DNA of 64,000 nt from Caulobacteraceae bacterium. Lineage in GTDB: Bacteria > Pseudomonadota > Alphaproteobacteria > Caulobacterales > Caulobacteraceae. Position 1 is the stretch's first letter. Each line of letters opens with the position of its first letter. A program made the translations under genes and the position numbers. The DNA lies in assembly GCA_947475845.1 (NCBI GenBank), contig CANJMO010000003.1:1-64000 (forward strand). Reading direction: 5' to 3'. Below, piece by piece: positions 45,278 to 54,328 of the stretch. The notes under the pieces are model-generated. The model was given only the letters and a program-made list of their open reading frames with translations, had not been told where the DNA came from and did not search any database.

Positions 45278-45802
45278 ATGACGCTTCGCCCCGCCGCACC
45301 CGCCGACCTGCCCGCCGTCGTCACCCTGGTCAATGCCGCCTACCGCGGAGCGGGGGCGCAAGCGGGCTGGACCACCGAGGCCGCCTATATCGATGGACCG
45401 AGGATCAATCTTGGTCTCCTGCAAGCCGATCTCGACGCGCAGCCGCAGGCGATGTTGCTGGTGTGGCGTGAGATTCCGGAAGGCGAAATCCTCGGCTGTG
45501 TGTGGCTGGAGCCGGCGGCTGAGGAGGCATGGTATCTGGGCATGCTGACAGTCAGGCCGGAGCTGCAGGCGAGCGGACTCGGGAGACGCATCCTTGAGGG
45601 CGCGCAAACCGCCGCGGCGAAAGCCGGCGCCCGACGCCTGCGCATGACCGTGGTCAACATCAGGGAAAGCCTGATCGCCTGGTATCAGAGGCGCGGGTAC
45701 ACTCTGACAGAGGAGCGGCGGCCGTTCCCGTACGCCGACAACCGCTTCGGCAAGCCGAGGCGCGACGACCTGGAATTCGTGGTGCTGGAGAAGGCGCTCT
45801 AA
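45278..45802 (+). CDS. GNAT family N-acetyltransferase
   Basis: This 174-residue acetyltransferase shows TLRPAAPADLPAVVTLVNAA at the start, AWYLGMLTVRPELQASGLGR (acetyl-CoA binding motif A, Q-x-x-G-x-G form) and SLIAWYQRRGYTLTEERRPF. It sits on the opposite strand between hpnI and hpnJ, interrupting what is usually a continuous hpn operon. Its stop overlaps that of hpnJ (CTAA). Substrate unknown; a link to hopanoid amino groups would be speculation. Confidence 0.85.
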   Translation: MTLRPAAPADLPAVVTLVNAAYRGAGAQAGWTTEAAYIDGPRINLGLLQADLDAQPQAMLLVWREIPEGEILGCVWLEPAAEEAWYLGMLTVRPELQASGLGRRILEGAQTAAAKAGARRLRMTVVNIRESLIAWYQRRGYTLTEERRPFPYADNRFGKPRRDDLEFVVLEKAL

Positions 45803-47232
45803 GCCGCGACGACTTCCTTGCGTTCCTTGAGGAACTTGAAGAACTCCTGCCCCTCGCGCAGACGGCGCTTCATCATATCGAAGTCCCGGGCCATCTCGTT
45901 GACGATGGCCATGATCTTGCGCGGGCGGAAGTAGAAGCGGCGGTAGAACTCCTCGACCGAGGCGTGGATGTCGCCGTGGCTGAGGTGCGGATAGTGCAGC
46001 GGCGCGATCTGGATGCCGTCGTCGGTGACCAGTTCGGCGTGTTCGGCGTCGAGCCAGCCGTTCTCAACCGCCTGATTATACAGGAAGGTGCCGGGATAGG
46101 GCGCGGCCAGGGACACCTGGATGGTGTGCGGATTGACCTTGCAGGCCCAGTCGATGGTTTCCTGAATGGTTTCCTTGGTCTCGCCCGGCAAGCCGGCGAT
46201 GAAGGTGCCGTGAATCTTGATGCCGAGATCGTGGCAGTCGCGGGTGAAGCGCTCGGCGACTTCGACGCGCATGCCTTTCTTGATGTTGAACAGGATCTGC
46301 TGGTTGCCGCTTTCGTAGCCCACCAGCAGCAGGCGCAGGCCGTTCTTGGCGAACTTCTCAAGGCTCTTGCGCGGCACATTGGCCTTGGCGTTGCACGACC
46401 AGGTGACGCCCATCTTGCCGAGGCCCTCGGCGATCAGCTCGGCGCGGGGCAGGTCGTCGGTGAAGGTGTCGTCATCGAACATGAACTCCTTCACCTGCGG
46501 GAAGCGGCGCTTGGCGTCGGCGATTTCGTCGAGCACCGACTGCACCGAACGGGTGCGGTAGTTGTGGCCGCCGACGGTCTGGGGCCACAGGCAGAAGGTG
46601 CAGTGCGATTTGCAGCCGCGGCCGGTGTAGACCGACAGATAGGGGTGCTTCAGGTAGCCGATGAAGTAGTCCTCGATCCGCAGATCGCGCTCATAGACCG
46701 GCACCACCGACGGCAGGCTGTCCATGGCGTGCAGGATCGGGCGGTCGATGTTGTGGTGGATGACGCCGGCCGCATCGCGGTAGCTGAGGCCGAGGATGGT
46801 TTCCCAGGGCTTCTCTTCGGCCACTTCCAGACAGGTGAAGTCGAACTCGTTGCGGCAGACGAAGTCGAGGCCAGGCGCGTCTTCAAGGCTCTTGTCCGAC
46901 TGCACGGCGACCTTGGCCCCGATCATGCCGATCTTCAGCTTGGGGTTGGCCGCCTTGAGCGCCTCGGCGCACTTCACGTCGCTGGCGAAGGACGGGACGG
47001 AGGTGTGGATGACCACCAGGTCGAAATCGCCTGCCTGGGCGGTGACGTCGGCCAGGGTAATGTCGGCCGGCGGGGCGTCGATCAGCTTGGAGCCGGGAAT
47101 CAGGGCAGCCGGCTGGGCCAGCCAGGTGGGGAACCAGAACGACCGGATTTCCCGCTTGGCCTGATAGCGCGAACCGGCGCCGCCATCGAAGCCGTCGAAG
47201 GAAGGAGCCTGGAGGAAGAGGGTCCGGAGCAT
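45799..47232 (-). CDS. hpnJ: Hopanoid radical SAM protein HpnJ
   Basis: This 477-residue radical SAM enzyme has an N-terminal B12-binding-like domain (VVIHTSVPSFASDVKCAEAL), the cluster motif GRGCKSHCTFCLWPQ (CxxxCxxC), and GIKIHGTFIAGLPGETKETI. MLRTLFLQAPSFDGFDGGAG and IRSFWFPTWLAQPAALIPGS at the N-terminus are typical of HpnJ, which acts in cyclitol ether formation on bacteriohopanetetrol. ATG 47232 is chosen from this N-terminus. The gene is read toward hpnI but separated from it by the opposite-strand GNAT gene. Confidence 0.9.
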   Translation of the reverse strand: MLRTLFLQAPSFDGFDGGAGSRYQAKREIRSFWFPTWLAQPAALIPGSKLIDAPPADITLADVTAQAGDFDLVVIHTSVPSFASDVKCAEALKAANPKLKIGMIGAKVAVQSDKSLEDAPGLDFVCRNEFDFTCLEVAEEKPWETILGLSYRDAAGVIHHNIDRPILHAMDSLPSVVPVYERDLRIEDYFIGYLKHPYLSVYTGRGCKSHCTFCLWPQTVGGHNYRTRSVQSVLDEIADAKRRFPQVKEFMFDDDTFTDDLPRAELIAEGLGKMGVTWSCNAKANVPRKSLEKFAKNGLRLLLVGYESGNQQILFNIKKGMRVEVAERFTRDCHDLGIKIHGTFIAGLPGETKETIQETIDWACKVNPHTIQVSLAAPYPGTFLYNQAVENGWLDAEHAELVTDDGIQIAPLHYPHLSHGDIHASVEEFYRRFYFRPRKIMAIVNEMARDFDMMKRRLREGQEFFKFLKERKEVVAA

Positions 47233-47366
47233 GGGAATCCTATATCCGAGTGGCGCGGTGCGACGCACGGGCCGACGAAACAGAGACCGTCATATAGCTG
47301 GACAGCGCGAAAGCCGCCATGCGTCACGCGCCAATCGCGTGAGTTGATGCACAAAAGACGCGCACA

Positions 47367-48356
47367 TCAGGCCGAAGCCAGCGGCAGGCGCAGAACGAAG
47401 GCCGCTCCGCCGCCCGGACGGTCCTCCACCGACACCGTCCCCTGATGCCGCTCGGCGATCCGTGAGACGATCGAGAGACCGAGGCCCGCCCCTGCTCCCG
47501 CCTGCGATGATGTGCGGCGGCGGCGCCAGAAACGGCGGAACAGCAGTTCGCGCTGATCGGCGGGAACGCCCGGCCCGCGGTCCAGCACCCGCACCACGCC
47601 CTCGGCGTCCAGTTCGATATGGACCGCGCTGCCGCTCGGCGCGTGAGCGATGGCGTTCTCCACCAGATTGCGCACCGCCTGAAACAGGGGCGCGATCTCC
47701 TGCGGCATGCCGATCACCGGCAAGCGCACGTCGATACGGCTGGGGGTGATCGCCTCGGCCAGCTTGGAGGCGCGCAAAACGGGGGCCAGGGCTCGGCGCA
47801 CGATGATCACGTCAACCGCCAGCAGCACCAGCAGCAACACCACGCTCAGCCAGCCGACCTGCGGCAGGAAGCGGGCCAGGACATCGTCCAGCACCACGTC
47901 GGGATATTCAAGGTTTTCGCCGATCTGGATCCAGATGCGCCGGCCGGCGACGGTTTCGGGGAAGCTGGCGCCGGAATAGACGCCCTCCTTCAGCCGCAGC
48001 TTGAAGATACGCGGCCCCTTGTCGCCGGGCGCCGGCAGGGGCGCCAGGGCCACTCTGCCGGGCTGAGACGAGATCAGGGACTGGCCCACCGCATCGACCA
48101 CGGCGAAATCGAAGCCGGAATTATCGGCGCCATAGCGGTTGCGCAGCCGCTGCGGCAGAATCGGCGCGGATCCGGACAGGTTCAGGGCCCCGAGCAGCCC
48201 CTGCTCATGCTGGTGCAGGACCTTGAGCTGGTAGGAGGTCATGGTCCGGCTGAGGAACAGGAAGATCGCCACCGGCATGATCAGCGAGGTGGCGACGATC
48301 GCCAGCATCTGCAGCCAGATGATTTGGGAAAAGGTCGACCGGAAGGCCCATCTCAT
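47367..48356 (-). CDS. Histidine kinase-like protein lacking the DHp/H-box domain
   Basis: This 329-residue protein begins as a normal kinase: TM1 (IIWLQMLAIVATSLIMPVAI), a periplasmic sensor (residues about 38-165), TM2 and a HAMP-like region (RRALAPVLRASKLAEAI, then VRLPVIGMPQEIAPL). It then jumps straight to the ATPase N-box (FQAVRNLVENAIAHAPSG), followed by DRGPGVP and GAGLGLSIVSRIAERHQG. The dimerisation/phosphoacceptor helices (H-box HELRTP) are absent. About 130 residues are missing in frame near 47675-47695. ATG 48356 follows GGCGGGG. It cannot autophosphorylate in the usual way. The partner regulator is also damaged. Confidence 0.85.
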   Translation of the reverse strand: MRWAFRSTFSQIIWLQMLAIVATSLIMPVAIFLFLSRTMTSYQLKVLHQHEQGLLGALNLSGSAPILPQRLRNRYGADNSGFDFAVVDAVGQSLISSQPGRVALAPLPAPGDKGPRIFKLRLKEGVYSGASFPETVAGRRIWIQIGENLEYPDVVLDDVLARFLPQVGWLSVVLLLVLLAVDVIIVRRALAPVLRASKLAEAITPSRIDVRLPVIGMPQEIAPLFQAVRNLVENAIAHAPSGSAVHIELDAEGVVRVLDRGPGVPADQRELLFRRFWRRRRTSSQAGAGAGLGLSIVSRIAERHQGTVSVEDRPGGGAAFVLRLPLASA

Positions 48357-48368
48357 CCCCGCCAAAGC

Positions 48369-49046
48369 CTAGACCTTCTCTTCGGTGATGAAGTAGCCGA
48401 CGCCCTTGACCGTATGCACCACCGCGCGCGCGTCCAGGGCCTGCAGGTGCTTGCGCAGGCGGTGGATGGCGACCTCGATGGCGTTGGAGCCCACGGGGGA
48501 CTACAGACCGAACAGATGATCCTCCACATAGCGCCGCTGCACCACCCGTCCGACCCGGCGCATCAACAGTTCGAGCAGGTCCAGTTCACGCGCGGAGAAG
48601 TTCTCGGGCCGACCGCCCACTAACATCTGGCGCGCCTCCACGTCCAGCGACAGGTCGCCCACCTGCAGTCGCTTGCCGAGAATTTCGCCCGGGCGGCGCA
48701 GTAGGGCCTGGAGCCGCGCCACCAGCTCCTCGGTGGCGAAGGGCTTGACCAGATAGTCGTCGGCCCCGGCGCGCAGGCCATCGACCCGGTCTGCCACGCT
48801 GCCGCGCGCGGTCAGGATCAGCACCGGCACGCTTGAGCCCTTGGCGCGCAGGCGCTTGAGCAGGGAGAGGCCGTCCTCGTCCGGCAGGCCGAGGTCCAGG
48901 ATAACGGCGGCGTAGTGAGCGCTGGCCAAGACGTCCTCGGCGCTGGAGGCCGAAATCATCAGATCGGCCGCAAAGCCGTTCTTGAGCAGAGCGGAGCTCA
49001 ACAGCTCGGCCAGATCCAGATTGTCCTCGACCACCAAGAGGCGCAT
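48369..49046 (-). pseudogene. OmpR-family response regulator with in-frame amber stop
   Basis: The receiver domain (MRLLVVEDNLDLAELLSSAL; phospho-acceptor in VILDLGLPDEDG; LVKPFATEELVARL) is followed by a winged-helix domain (LDVEARQMLVGGRPENFSAR). Translation meets TAG at 48501-48503 after DHLFGL. The same frame then continues SPVGSNAIEVAIHRLRKHL and VVHTVKGVGYFITEEKV to TAG at 48369-48371, just before the kinase gene. One base change (for example CAG to TAG) explains it. The truncated product keeps the receiver but loses the recognition helix and wing. A TTG at 49064 is a less likely start than ATG 49046. Confidence 0.9.
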
Positions 49047-49161
49047 TCGACCGTCCGTTCCCAATGCCGTTAAGCGCCGGTAATCGGACCGCGCCGCTAC
49101 GGCCTAGAATTCCGAGCTTACGGCGACCTTACCCGCATCCCTTTAGGCGAACGACAAGCCT

Positions 49162-50109
49162 CTATGGCTTCAGGTCCGCGTATAGGCCATGCAGGCCGCG
49201 CACCATGGCGAAGCCGGGATCGGGCCAGTGCAGCGGGCCCTTGTTGAGGTGCGTGCGCAGGTCGGCTTGCGTCTTTGTCCCGTCGGCGAGGAAAGCCCTG
49301 ACATCGGTGCGCACGCGCTCAAGGATGTCGCGGTAGGCCACGATATCGGCGGGCGTCCCGAGCGTGCCGTGGCCCGACATCACCCGGTCGAACTTGTAGT
49401 CGGCCAGGATCGAATTAAGCCGCTCAATCCAGCCGCCGATGGAGCCGCCGGCGATGTAGTCGATCAGGGGATACTGACCGCCCCGCTCCAGGTCGCCGAT
49501 GTGGGCCAGGTCGCCGACGCAGATCACGCGGTCCTGCGGGAAATAGACCACCACGTCGCTGTTGGTATGGCCGGGGCCGTAGTGGCGGATGCGCACTTCC
49601 TTGCCGCCGAGATAGAGCCGCATCTCCCCGGTGAAGGTGACGTTGGCCGGCGCCATGCCGACGGGAGCGCCCGGCTGCTTCTTGGCCAGGATGTCCTCGC
49701 GCCCCGGGATCGACGAGATGACCTGGACGCCGTCCTTGAGGAAGCGGACGTTCGCCCCCGAGTGGTCGGCATGGTAGTGGGTGTCGATCACGAACTTGAT
49801 CGGTTTGGTCGAAACCTTCTCGCGGATGACCTTGATCAGGTCGTCGTACTGGTAGTCGTATTTCACATCGACCAGGATCAGGCCCTCGTCGGTCACCAGC
49901 ACCATCACATTGGAATTGCTGCCCGAGCCTGGGATTTGCCAGAGGTCGTCGCTCAGCTTGACCGCCGTGAACGGTGGGTAGGGCTGAGGCTTGAGATCGG
50001 TGGCCAGGACCGACATCTGATCGAGCGGCTGCGCGCGCGCGGCCGGCGCGCCGAGGCCGAGGGCCGCGGCGGCCAGGATCGCGAGCAGAGCCGGTCGCTG
50101 GCGCTTCAT
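49162..50109 (-). CDS. Exported MBL-fold metallo-hydrolase
   Basis: This 315-residue protein has a signal peptide (MKRQRPALLAILAAAALGLG to ARA) and a metallo-beta-lactamase fold with DTHYHADHSGANVRF (HxHxDH), HYGPGHTNSDVVVYFP and MSGHGTLG as zinc ligands. The family includes beta-lactamases, lactonases and quorum-quenching enzymes; the substrate is unknown. It overlaps the upstream, very similar paralogue by 4 bases (ATGA), so both are one operon from a tandem duplication. Confidence 0.88.
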   Translation of the reverse strand: MKRQRPALLAILAAAALGLGAPAARAQPLDQMSVLATDLKPQPYPPFTAVKLSDDLWQIPGSGSNSNVMVLVTDEGLILVDVKYDYQYDDLIKVIREKVSTKPIKFVIDTHYHADHSGANVRFLKDGVQVISSIPGREDILAKKQPGAPVGMAPANVTFTGEMRLYLGGKEVRIRHYGPGHTNSDVVVYFPQDRVICVGDLAHIGDLERGGQYPLIDYIAGGSIGGWIERLNSILADYKFDRVMSGHGTLGTPADIVAYRDILERVRTDVRAFLADGTKTQADLRTHLNKGPLHWPDPGFAMVRGLHGLYADLKP

Positions 50110-51056
50110 CCCTTGGGCTTCAGGTCCATGAACATGCCGTGGGTCGAGCGCACGATCGACAGGCCGGGATCGGGCCAGTGTTCGTCCCGGACGAGGTGGG
50201 CGCGCAGGTCCGCCTCGGTCTTGGTCCCGTCGCGCAGATAGGCGGCGACGTGGTCGCGCAGCTTCTCCAGCAGGTCACGGTAAGCGATAATGTCGGCCTT
50301 GGTCCCCACCGTGCCGTGGCCGGGCACGACCTTGTCGATGACGGTGCTGGAGGTGATCGTATCGAGCCGGTCGATCCAGCCCTGGATGCTGCCGCCGCCA
50401 TTGTAGTCGATCAGCGGGTACTGACCGCCGCGCGCCAGATCGCCGATGTGGGTCAGGTCGCCGACGCAGATGACGCGGGCGTGCGGAAAGTAGACCGTCA
50501 CGTCGGTGCCGGTGTGGCCGGGGCCATAGTGATTGATGCGAATCTCGCGGCCGCCGACGTACAGGCGCATCTCGCCGGTGAAGGCGATGTTGGCGGGCAC
50601 CATGTTGGGCGGCGCGCCGGGCTGGACCTTGTTGACCGTGTTGTCGTGCCCGGGGATCGACGAGATGATGTCGGCGCCGGCGGGGCGGAAGCGCGTGTTC
50701 CCGCCCGAATGGTCGGCGTGATAGTGGGTGTCGATCACATATTTGACCTTCTTGGTGCTGATCTTCTCGCGGATCACCTTCATCAGGTCGTCGTAGTGGT
50801 ACTCGTACTTGTCATCGACCAAAGCGAGGCCCTCGTCGGTGACGAGGATGGTCACGTTGGAGCCGGCGCCCGGCACCTCCCACAGATCGTCGGCCAACTT
50901 GACCGCCTCGAACGGAGGGTGCGGTTGAGGGGTGGTCTGATCGACCGGCTGCGATGCCGTGACGTTGGGTTTGGGCTGGGCGTGGACGCTCAGGGCGCCG
51001 AGGCCGAGGGTCGCGCCGGCCATGAGGACGAGCAGGGCCTGCTTGGAAGGCTGCAT
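50106..51056 (-). CDS. Exported MBL-fold metallo-hydrolase, tandem paralogue
   Basis: This 316-residue protein with signal peptide to VHAQ is alignable end to end by eye with the downstream protein: DTHYHADHSGGNTRFRPAG, INHYGPGHTGTDVTVYFPHA, CVGDLTHIGDLARGGQYPLI and VPGHGTVGTKADIIAYRDLL. All zinc ligands are kept in both copies, so both are probably active. It lies 37 bases after a third, more distant MBL gene. Confidence 0.88.
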   Translation of the reverse strand: MQPSKQALLVLMAGATLGLGALSVHAQPKPNVTASQPVDQTTPQPHPPFEAVKLADDLWEVPGAGSNVTILVTDEGLALVDDKYEYHYDDLMKVIREKISTKKVKYVIDTHYHADHSGGNTRFRPAGADIISSIPGHDNTVNKVQPGAPPNMVPANIAFTGEMRLYVGGREIRINHYGPGHTGTDVTVYFPHARVICVGDLTHIGDLARGGQYPLIDYNGGGSIQGWIDRLDTITSSTVIDKVVPGHGTVGTKADIIAYRDLLEKLRDHVAAYLRDGTKTEADLRAHLVRDEHWPDPGLSIVRSTHGMFMDLKPKG

Positions 51057-51093
51057 GGGTCTTCTCTTCGGTAAAGCTGGAAGGGGGCGCGGA

Positions 51094-52035
51094 CTACTTC
51101 TTCATCCGGCGCGTGAGGTCGGTGTAGATCAGGCCGATCCAGCGGGCGGGCGTGATGTTGCCGCCCAGACGGCCCTCATTGAAGTCCTTGGTCGGCTCGG
51201 CGGCGACGATCTGTTCCAGCGTCTTGCCCTGCTTGATCATCTTGGCGATGCGGTCGCGCACGGTCTGGAACATGGTGTCCTGGATCGTGATCTCCTTGAA
51301 CCCGACCACGGGGCCGAGGTGGCCCGGCACGATCTTGGTCTGCGAATTGGCCAGCTTCATCACCAGCTTGCCGTCGGCGATCATGCCGTCGACAGAGCCG
51401 CCATCGTTGACGCCGATGTTGTTGAAGCGGAACGAGGCCGGCAGGTCGCCGACGTGCATCACATTAGCCTTCTTGAAGTAGACGATGGTGTCGCCGTCGG
51501 TGTGGGCCGCGGGCGGGTGGATAAGCTCGATGTCCTCGCCGTCGAAATGCAGGGTCATGCGGTCGTTATAGGTGACGGTCGGCACGTTCTCCGGCGGATA
51601 GGCCGGAGTCAGTTCGCTCTTGGGCAGCAGCATGCGGCGGCGCACGCTGTCTTGGGCGATGATCACCGTCCCGTCCTTGGCGAACAGGCCGTTGCCGGCG
51701 GTGTGGTCGCCGTGCAGGTGAGTGTTGATGACGTACTTCACAGGGCCCGTGGCGCCCGTGGCGCGGATCGCGGCCATCAGCTTGTCGTGCAGTTGCGGGA
51801 ACATCGAGTCGATCAGCAGTACGCCGTCAGCCCCGGTCAGCATCATCACGTTGCCGACGCCGGGCGCGGCCTCCATCACGTAGAGGTTGTCGGCCAGCTT
51901 GGTGGTCTTGATCTGCAGCTTGGCGAAGTCCATCGCCTGACCCTGTTGGGCGTGGGCGGCGGTTCCGAAACCGAGTGCGGCCATGGCCACGGCGGCGGCG
52001 AGCGTCTTCACGACCCCGATCCGGAAATTATGCAT
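51094..52035 (-). CDS. Exported MBL-fold metallo-hydrolase (third, divergent copy)
   Basis: This 313-residue protein has a signal peptide (ending AAHAQ) and MBL motifs NTHLHGDHTAGNGLFAKDG, HPPAAHTDGDTIVYFKKANV and VPGHLGPVVGF. It has the HxHxDH pattern (HLHGDH) but differs clearly from the two downstream copies, which have HYHADH. All three read in the same direction and are closely spaced, suggesting a common transcript beginning in the 348-base region upstream. Confidence 0.87.
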   Translation of the reverse strand: MHNFRIGVVKTLAAAVAMAALGFGTAAHAQQGQAMDFAKLQIKTTKLADNLYVMEAAPGVGNVMMLTGADGVLLIDSMFPQLHDKLMAAIRATGATGPVKYVINTHLHGDHTAGNGLFAKDGTVIIAQDSVRRRMLLPKSELTPAYPPENVPTVTYNDRMTLHFDGEDIELIHPPAAHTDGDTIVYFKKANVMHVGDLPASFRFNNIGVNDGGSVDGMIADGKLVMKLANSQTKIVPGHLGPVVGFKEITIQDTMFQTVRDRIAKMIKQGKTLEQIVAAEPTKDFNEGRLGGNITPARWIGLIYTDLTRRMKK

Positions 52036-53209: not shown

Positions 53210-54328
53210 ATGACCCTGCGCATCGACGCCGACTTCGACGGCGGCAATATCGTCGTGGTCAGTGTGGACGAAGCGGCCGCCAATCTGACCATCCGTCAGG
53301 ATTCCAACGGGCCCTGGTTCCAATGGTTCTATTTCCGGGTGGACGGCGCGGGGAGCAAGGATCTGGTCCTGCGCATCGTCAACGCCGGCGTCTCGGCCTA
53401 TCCCGGCGGCTGGCCGGGCTATCAGGCCTGTGTCTCGACCGACAACGAAACCTGGACCCGCGCCCAGACCAGCTTCGCCGACGGCGTGCTCTAAATCCGC
53501 TATCCGGCGCAGGCCGACACCGTCTGGTTCGCCTTCTTCGCCCCCTACGACCTTGCCCGGCACCAGCGCCTGCTGGATCGCGCCGCCGCCGCCCCGGGCG
53601 TGGCGGTCGATGTCTTGGGCCAGTCGGTCGATGGCCGGCCGATCCATCGCGTCGCCATGGGCGATGGCCCCAAGCGCGTCTGGGTGGTGGCCTGCCAGCA
53701 CTCCGGCGAGACCATGGCCAGCTGGTGGATGGAGGGGGCATTGGATTGCCTGCTCGATCCCACCGACCCCGTCGGCGTGGCGCTGCGGGCGGAAGCGCAG
53801 GTGCACCTGGTCCCGATCGTCAACATCGACGGCGCGTTCCGCGGCAACCTGCGGGGCAGCGCGGCGGGGGTGGACCTGAACCGCCAATGGCATGCGCCCG
53901 ATCCGGCCATCGCGCCTGAAGTGGCCTGTGTTCTGGCCGCCATGGACAAGACCGGCTGCGACCTCAGTCTCGACGTGCACGGCGACGAGACCCTGCCGCA
54001 CGTGTTCGTCGACGGCTGCGACCAGGATCCGGTGGCGACTGCGGCTCAGGTCGCCGGGGTGCGGCGGTTCGAGGCCGCCCTGCTGGCCGCCAGTCCCGCC
54101 TTTCAGACCGCGGTCGGCTATCCCCCGACCTATGGCGGCGACGCGGCGCCGGGCATGTGCAACCGCGCGCTGGGCCGCCGCTTCGGTGCTATCGGCCTGA
54201 CCCTGGAAATGCCGTTCCACGACAGCCTGGAGACGCCCGATCCCATCGCGGGTTGGTCGCCGGAGGCTTCAAGGCGTATGGGCCGGGCCAGCCTGGAAGC
54301 CATCCTCAACACCGTGCGTGCAGGCTAA
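53210..54328 (+). pseudogene. M14 family (cytosolic carboxypeptidase-like) zinc peptidase with in-frame TAA
   Basis: One continuous frame encodes an N-terminal beta domain (MTLRIDADFDGGNIVVVSVD; WFQWFYFRVDGAGSKD) and an M14 catalytic domain. It is interrupted by TAA at 53492-53494 between DGVL and IRYPAQADTVWFAFF; GAA to TAA would explain it. Downstream the zinc and catalytic residues are intact: QHSGET (H, E), LDVHGDE (H) and LTLEMPF (E). The arrangement resembles AGBL/CCP-type carboxypeptidases, which have a beta domain before the catalytic domain. A GTG at 53600 might restart the catalytic part alone. Confidence 0.87.

Follow-up and report, generated by a model that had tools for sequence, protein, structure and literature searches.

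A TctD/TctE-like two-component operon of a Caulobacteraceae bacterium, probably inactivated recently by an amber codon in its regulator gene and a deletion in its kinase gene

In this work, we have analysed a two-component operon located in a window of 64,000 nucleotides (the whole stretch of DNA under analysis) from the draft genome of a Caulobacteraceae bacterium. Our results indicate that this operon is very probably a non-functional, early-stage pseudogene remnant of a TctD/TctE-like accessory system that lost its function recently, in a genome undergoing erosion. Both genes carry a lesion, relatives carry both genes intact, and a congener lacks the operon in its syntenic slot. In intact systems of this kind, the kinase autophosphorylates on a histidine of its DHp domain, the phosphate passes to the receiver, and the winged helix of the regulator binds DNA. 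Here, the nonsense mutation would remove the recognition helix and the wing, so that the receiver would be joined to only part of a DNA-binding domain, while a 375-nt deletion between short direct repeats would remove the DHp and leave a kinase without its phospho-acceptor histidine. These two independent lesions in one operon point to decay; the loss of residual activity, relaxed selection as the cause and the order of the two events are inferences.

The regulator gene (48369–49046, minus strand) is a frame of 225 codons that translates with a single internal stop, a TAG at 48501–48503 (codon 182) followed by a T, as the sequence-only reading of this DNA had claimed when it described an otherwise open OmpR-type regulator split by an amber codon. 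From the ATG at 49046 its open part codes for 181 aa, or 187 aa if the alternative TTG start at 49064 is used. The receiver (residues 4–112) is complete (PF00072, 88.3 bits), with the acidic pocket (E7, D8), the phospho-acceptor aspartate (D51) and the lysine K101 present and invariant with the relatives. The claimed truncation of the DNA-binding domain is also borne out: read with an X at the TAG, Pfam Trans_reg_C scores 61.8 bits over 73 residues (147–219), whereas the truncated ORF, which holds only the first portion of this domain, reaches 22.5 bits, short of the cut-off of 26.2. Alignment to PmrA/BasR structures (8jo2, 4s04) places the stop just upstream of the recognition helix, at a site that we take to be the α2–α3 loop from general knowledge of the fold, and the winged-helix domain of the translated regulator is thus incomplete; the residue at this position differs among the relatives. 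The remainder 3΄ of the TAG (48369–48500, minus strand), coding for the recognition helix and the wing, continues in frame. Re-initiation at a GTG two codons past the TAG was considered as a source of function and rejected, the product being only 41 aa long and devoid of most of the domain. The best-scoring NCBIfam models were those for PmrA (207.9 bits) and for TctD (202.9 bits), neither reaching its equivalog cut-off (330 and 337, respectively). The gene therefore shares with the PmrA(BasR)/TctD members of the OmpR family a receiver and, with the X, a Trans_reg_C domain, and BasR/PmrA is its best solved relative, but it differs from them in these sub-threshold scores and in being stopped ahead of the recognition helix.

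The adjoining gene codes for a TctE-like sensor kinase (47367–48356, minus strand; the ATG at 48356 is the assumed start, and a TTG at 48365 is also possible) that consists only of a membrane/sensor region, a HAMP domain and HATPase_c (PF02518, 94.5 bits). A Pfam profile search gave no HisKA match in this protein, in agreement with the earlier claim of a DHp-less kinase, and the HAMP region runs straight into the N box. Between EIAP and RNLVENA (or the corresponding motifs) every one of the five relatives has 130 residues and the window kinase has 5, so that exactly 125 codons (375 nt) are absent, in frame. In the relatives a 15-nt motif that codes for LxxAV or similar stands on each side of the missing segment, the two copies sharing 7–11 of their 15 bases; a single copy survives at the junction (47673–47687, minus strand). 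The loss probably arose by slippage or recombination between these short imperfect direct repeats. Like the TctE-type kinases (2CSK_N, HAMP, HisKA, HATPase_c), whose orthologues occupy the same position in the operon, the window protein has HATPase_c; unlike them it has neither HisKA nor DHp. As the phospho-acceptor histidine lies within the deleted DHp, canonical phosphotransfer should be impossible.

We searched 390 genomes of this family for orthologues. Three other genera (G010, G006 and G009) have a clear orthologue of the regulator, 58–62% identical and followed in each case by the kinase gene, and the pair is also present on two MAG contigs, one labelled Hyphomicrobiales (L086) and the other Xanthobacteraceae (L087), whose kinases match the TctE-type 2CSK_N sensor domain above the cut-off. 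In all five relatives the regulator is uninterrupted and the kinase has both HisKA and HATPase_c; neither of the window lesions is present in any of them. These intact operons, together with the exact in-frame deletion, agree with the previous suggestion that both halves of the system appear disabled. Identity to the five relatives is 53–63% over the 38 codons after the stop, against 49–64% over the 61 codons before it, and GC3 downstream of the TAG is 0.97; because post-stop identity is near the pre-stop level and third-position GC is so high, the continuation past the TAG is not due to chance. The sequence-only reading was hence right that the residues after the stop are preserved in frame and that, with such a clean frame, the change looks recent. 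When positions otherwise invariant are considered, the window breaks 3 of 18 after the stop (0–3 in each of the other sequences), 2 of 60 in the receiver and 2 of 34 in the kinase ATPase domain. In the DNA-binding codons upstream of the TAG it breaks 5 of 23, the highest value of the six sequences, the others breaking 1–3 of 19–21 each. For relaxed constraint on the regulator this is a slight indication at best, and the operon was not found in close relatives. The good preservation of the post-stop frame and of the remaining kinase domains speaks against decay in so far as decay can be recent at most, and for the same reason we regard the lesion as recent. It could also be proposed that the truncated proteins hold a new role, the regulator as a receiver acting by itself and the kinase as a membrane ATPase without DHp, given that both remaining ORFs are open and most invariant residues are kept. 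We consider this very unlikely, since the regulator stops within a folded domain and not at a domain boundary, the part of that domain that is still translated breaks more invariant positions than in any of the other five sequences, and this form is seen in none of the five relatives, the congener being without the genes.

What is the status of this operon in the genus? On its left flank lies hpnJ, coding for a hopanoid-associated radical SAM protein (45799–47268, minus strand), and on its right flank three tandem genes for secreted proteins of the metallo-beta-lactamase fold (49162–52035, minus strand), for which SoxH-related models score below their cut-off. Both flanks are syntenic with the congener G002, with 94% aa identity for hpnJ and about 81% nt identity for the lactamase-fold genes. 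The operon is missing from the syntenic slot of this congener, which carries instead a methyltransferase, a calcineurin-like phosphoesterase and a TrkA-type channel, genes without detectable similarity to the regulator or the kinase. In a second congener (G001, 79% complete) the best match does not exceed 52% identity, and the window's own genome contains no further copy of the regulator above 41% identity. Judged from synteny, the regulator–kinase module is accessory and lies in a variable genomic slot. In two of the other genera the intact operon is divergent from two adjacent genes that by their size could encode a membrane-fusion protein and an RND pump (G006, L043 10093–14542, plus strand; G009, L044 7219–11648, plus strand), a pair that may be an ancestral target. 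An RND efflux pump in this role is no more than a candidate: no match to it is present in L045, L086 or L087, and the window operon has none beside it. In the literature we found nothing specific to this operon.

The stop in the regulator is one case of an apparent excess of internal stops in this genome, enriched in signalling genes. We scanned 1.27 Mb of the draft genome (101 contigs) for codon-usage signal continuing across a stop in the same frame, and obtained 13 internal stops (8 TAG and 5 TAA), an approximate number reached after ordinary adjacent genes were removed by eye. The same scan, with the codon model of the window genome, gave 0–1 internal stops (curated by eye) in 838 kb of the relatives G010 and G006; 13 would be very unlikely at that rate. 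Two-component genes, which make up about 3.6% of coding codons, hold five of the 13 (p about 6e-5, hand-curated and approximate), and all five are TAG. Besides the regulator, these genes are a hybrid histidine kinase with the TAG in its H box (L288, C2 97887–97889, minus strand), intact in both congeners at 77% identity; a hybrid histidine kinase with two TAGs, in the membrane region and in the receiver (L197, C8 42435–42437 and 41328–41330, minus strand); and a CHASE8 hybrid histidine kinase whose HisKA region has a TAG at its end (L166, C9 39629–39631, minus strand). We rejected the possibility that the TAG is conserved across genera in the orthologous C2 kinase, as in G005 and G026 the stops lie upstream of the start and the H box is intact. 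Outside signalling, in-frame TAGs interrupt a Kup-type potassium transporter near the start of its K_trans domain (L204, C11 25960–25962, plus strand), a TonB receptor (L202, C10 37701, plus strand) and a PQQ dehydrogenase (L187, C5 27633, plus strand). TAAs interrupt a carboxypeptidase-like gene in the window itself (53492–53494, plus strand), where Pepdidase_M14_N spans the stop, a membrane-fusion protein (L178, C2 27490, minus strand), a pyridoxamine-oxidase-like gene (L180, C2 75441, minus strand) and a methyltransferase-like gene (L192, C7 5099, plus strand); a large surface-type protein gene is also among the 13. In most of the stop-bearing genes submitted to Pfam, a domain extends across the stop. 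The region around the 53492–53494 stop is missing from the syntenic contig of G002. As the pyridoxamine-oxidase-like and methyltransferase-like genes each carry a downstream frameshift in addition to the TAA, these two are genuine pseudogenes and not base errors.

Could the TAG come from a base error in the consensus of the draft assembly, or from an allele of a minority strain, with the regulator intact in the living population? A genome in 101 contigs with an excess of in-frame stops invites this explanation, and the mix of stop types, with many TAA and no TGA, is in better agreement with GC>TA or AT>TA changes than with the usual GC>AT transitions. Nevertheless, we think it rather unlikely. 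The 375-nt deletion that the kinase of the same operon has suffered at short repeats is no error of base calling and makes a consensus error at the TAG less likely; the internal stops cluster in two-component genes; and the two frameshifted genes show damage of another kind. The substitutions in hpnJ also argue against it, since their spectrum is without clear skew: when they are polarised, any tendency towards GC>TA is weak (8/63 versus 2/41). A mutator arising by loss of MutY or MutM was rejected on this same spectrum and because both ORFs are intact. A mutator or read-damage signature is neither shown nor fully excluded.

The sequence-only reading had left room for read-through or suppression of the amber codon, which would yield some full-length regulator. 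The clean frame downstream of the TAG, the exclusive presence of TAG among the stops in two-component genes and the incompleteness of the recovered tRNA set are consistent with this idea. However, release factor 1 is intact (488 bits, over the cut-off), and TAG is an everyday terminator, ending 244 of 644 long ORFs, so that efficient suppression would lengthen a great number of proteins. The amber suppressor tRNA for which a search had been suggested was not found: a search with RF00005 gave 34 tRNA matches, those typed by ARAGORN include no CTA anticodon in a recovered set that lacks Trp, Ile and most Ser tRNAs, and a pattern search combining a CTA anticodon loop with a T arm returned one ordinary tRNA-Arg and two sites not called as tRNA by ARAGORN. 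In addition, 5 of the 13 internal stops are TAA, and a full-length regulator would still be without its phosphorylating partner. Read-through at this codon is therefore highly improbable, and we give hardly any credence to the broader proposal that the lineage tolerates TAG in signalling genes, with low-level amber read-through supplying a little of the regulators and kinases at full length.

As in the two-component pseudogenes generally known from genomes under reduction, we observe nonsense and deletion lesions, a dispensable operon and other broken signalling genes; there is no qualitative difference from those cases. In this operon the lesions affect both genes, and that in the kinase gene is, by chance, in frame. 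Our analysis removes a candidate for stop-codon recoding and replaces it with the probable ordinary decay of an accessory two-component module. Most likely, this genome is losing accessory signalling genes, and if the wider pattern is real, it would be a snapshot of signalling genes being shed.
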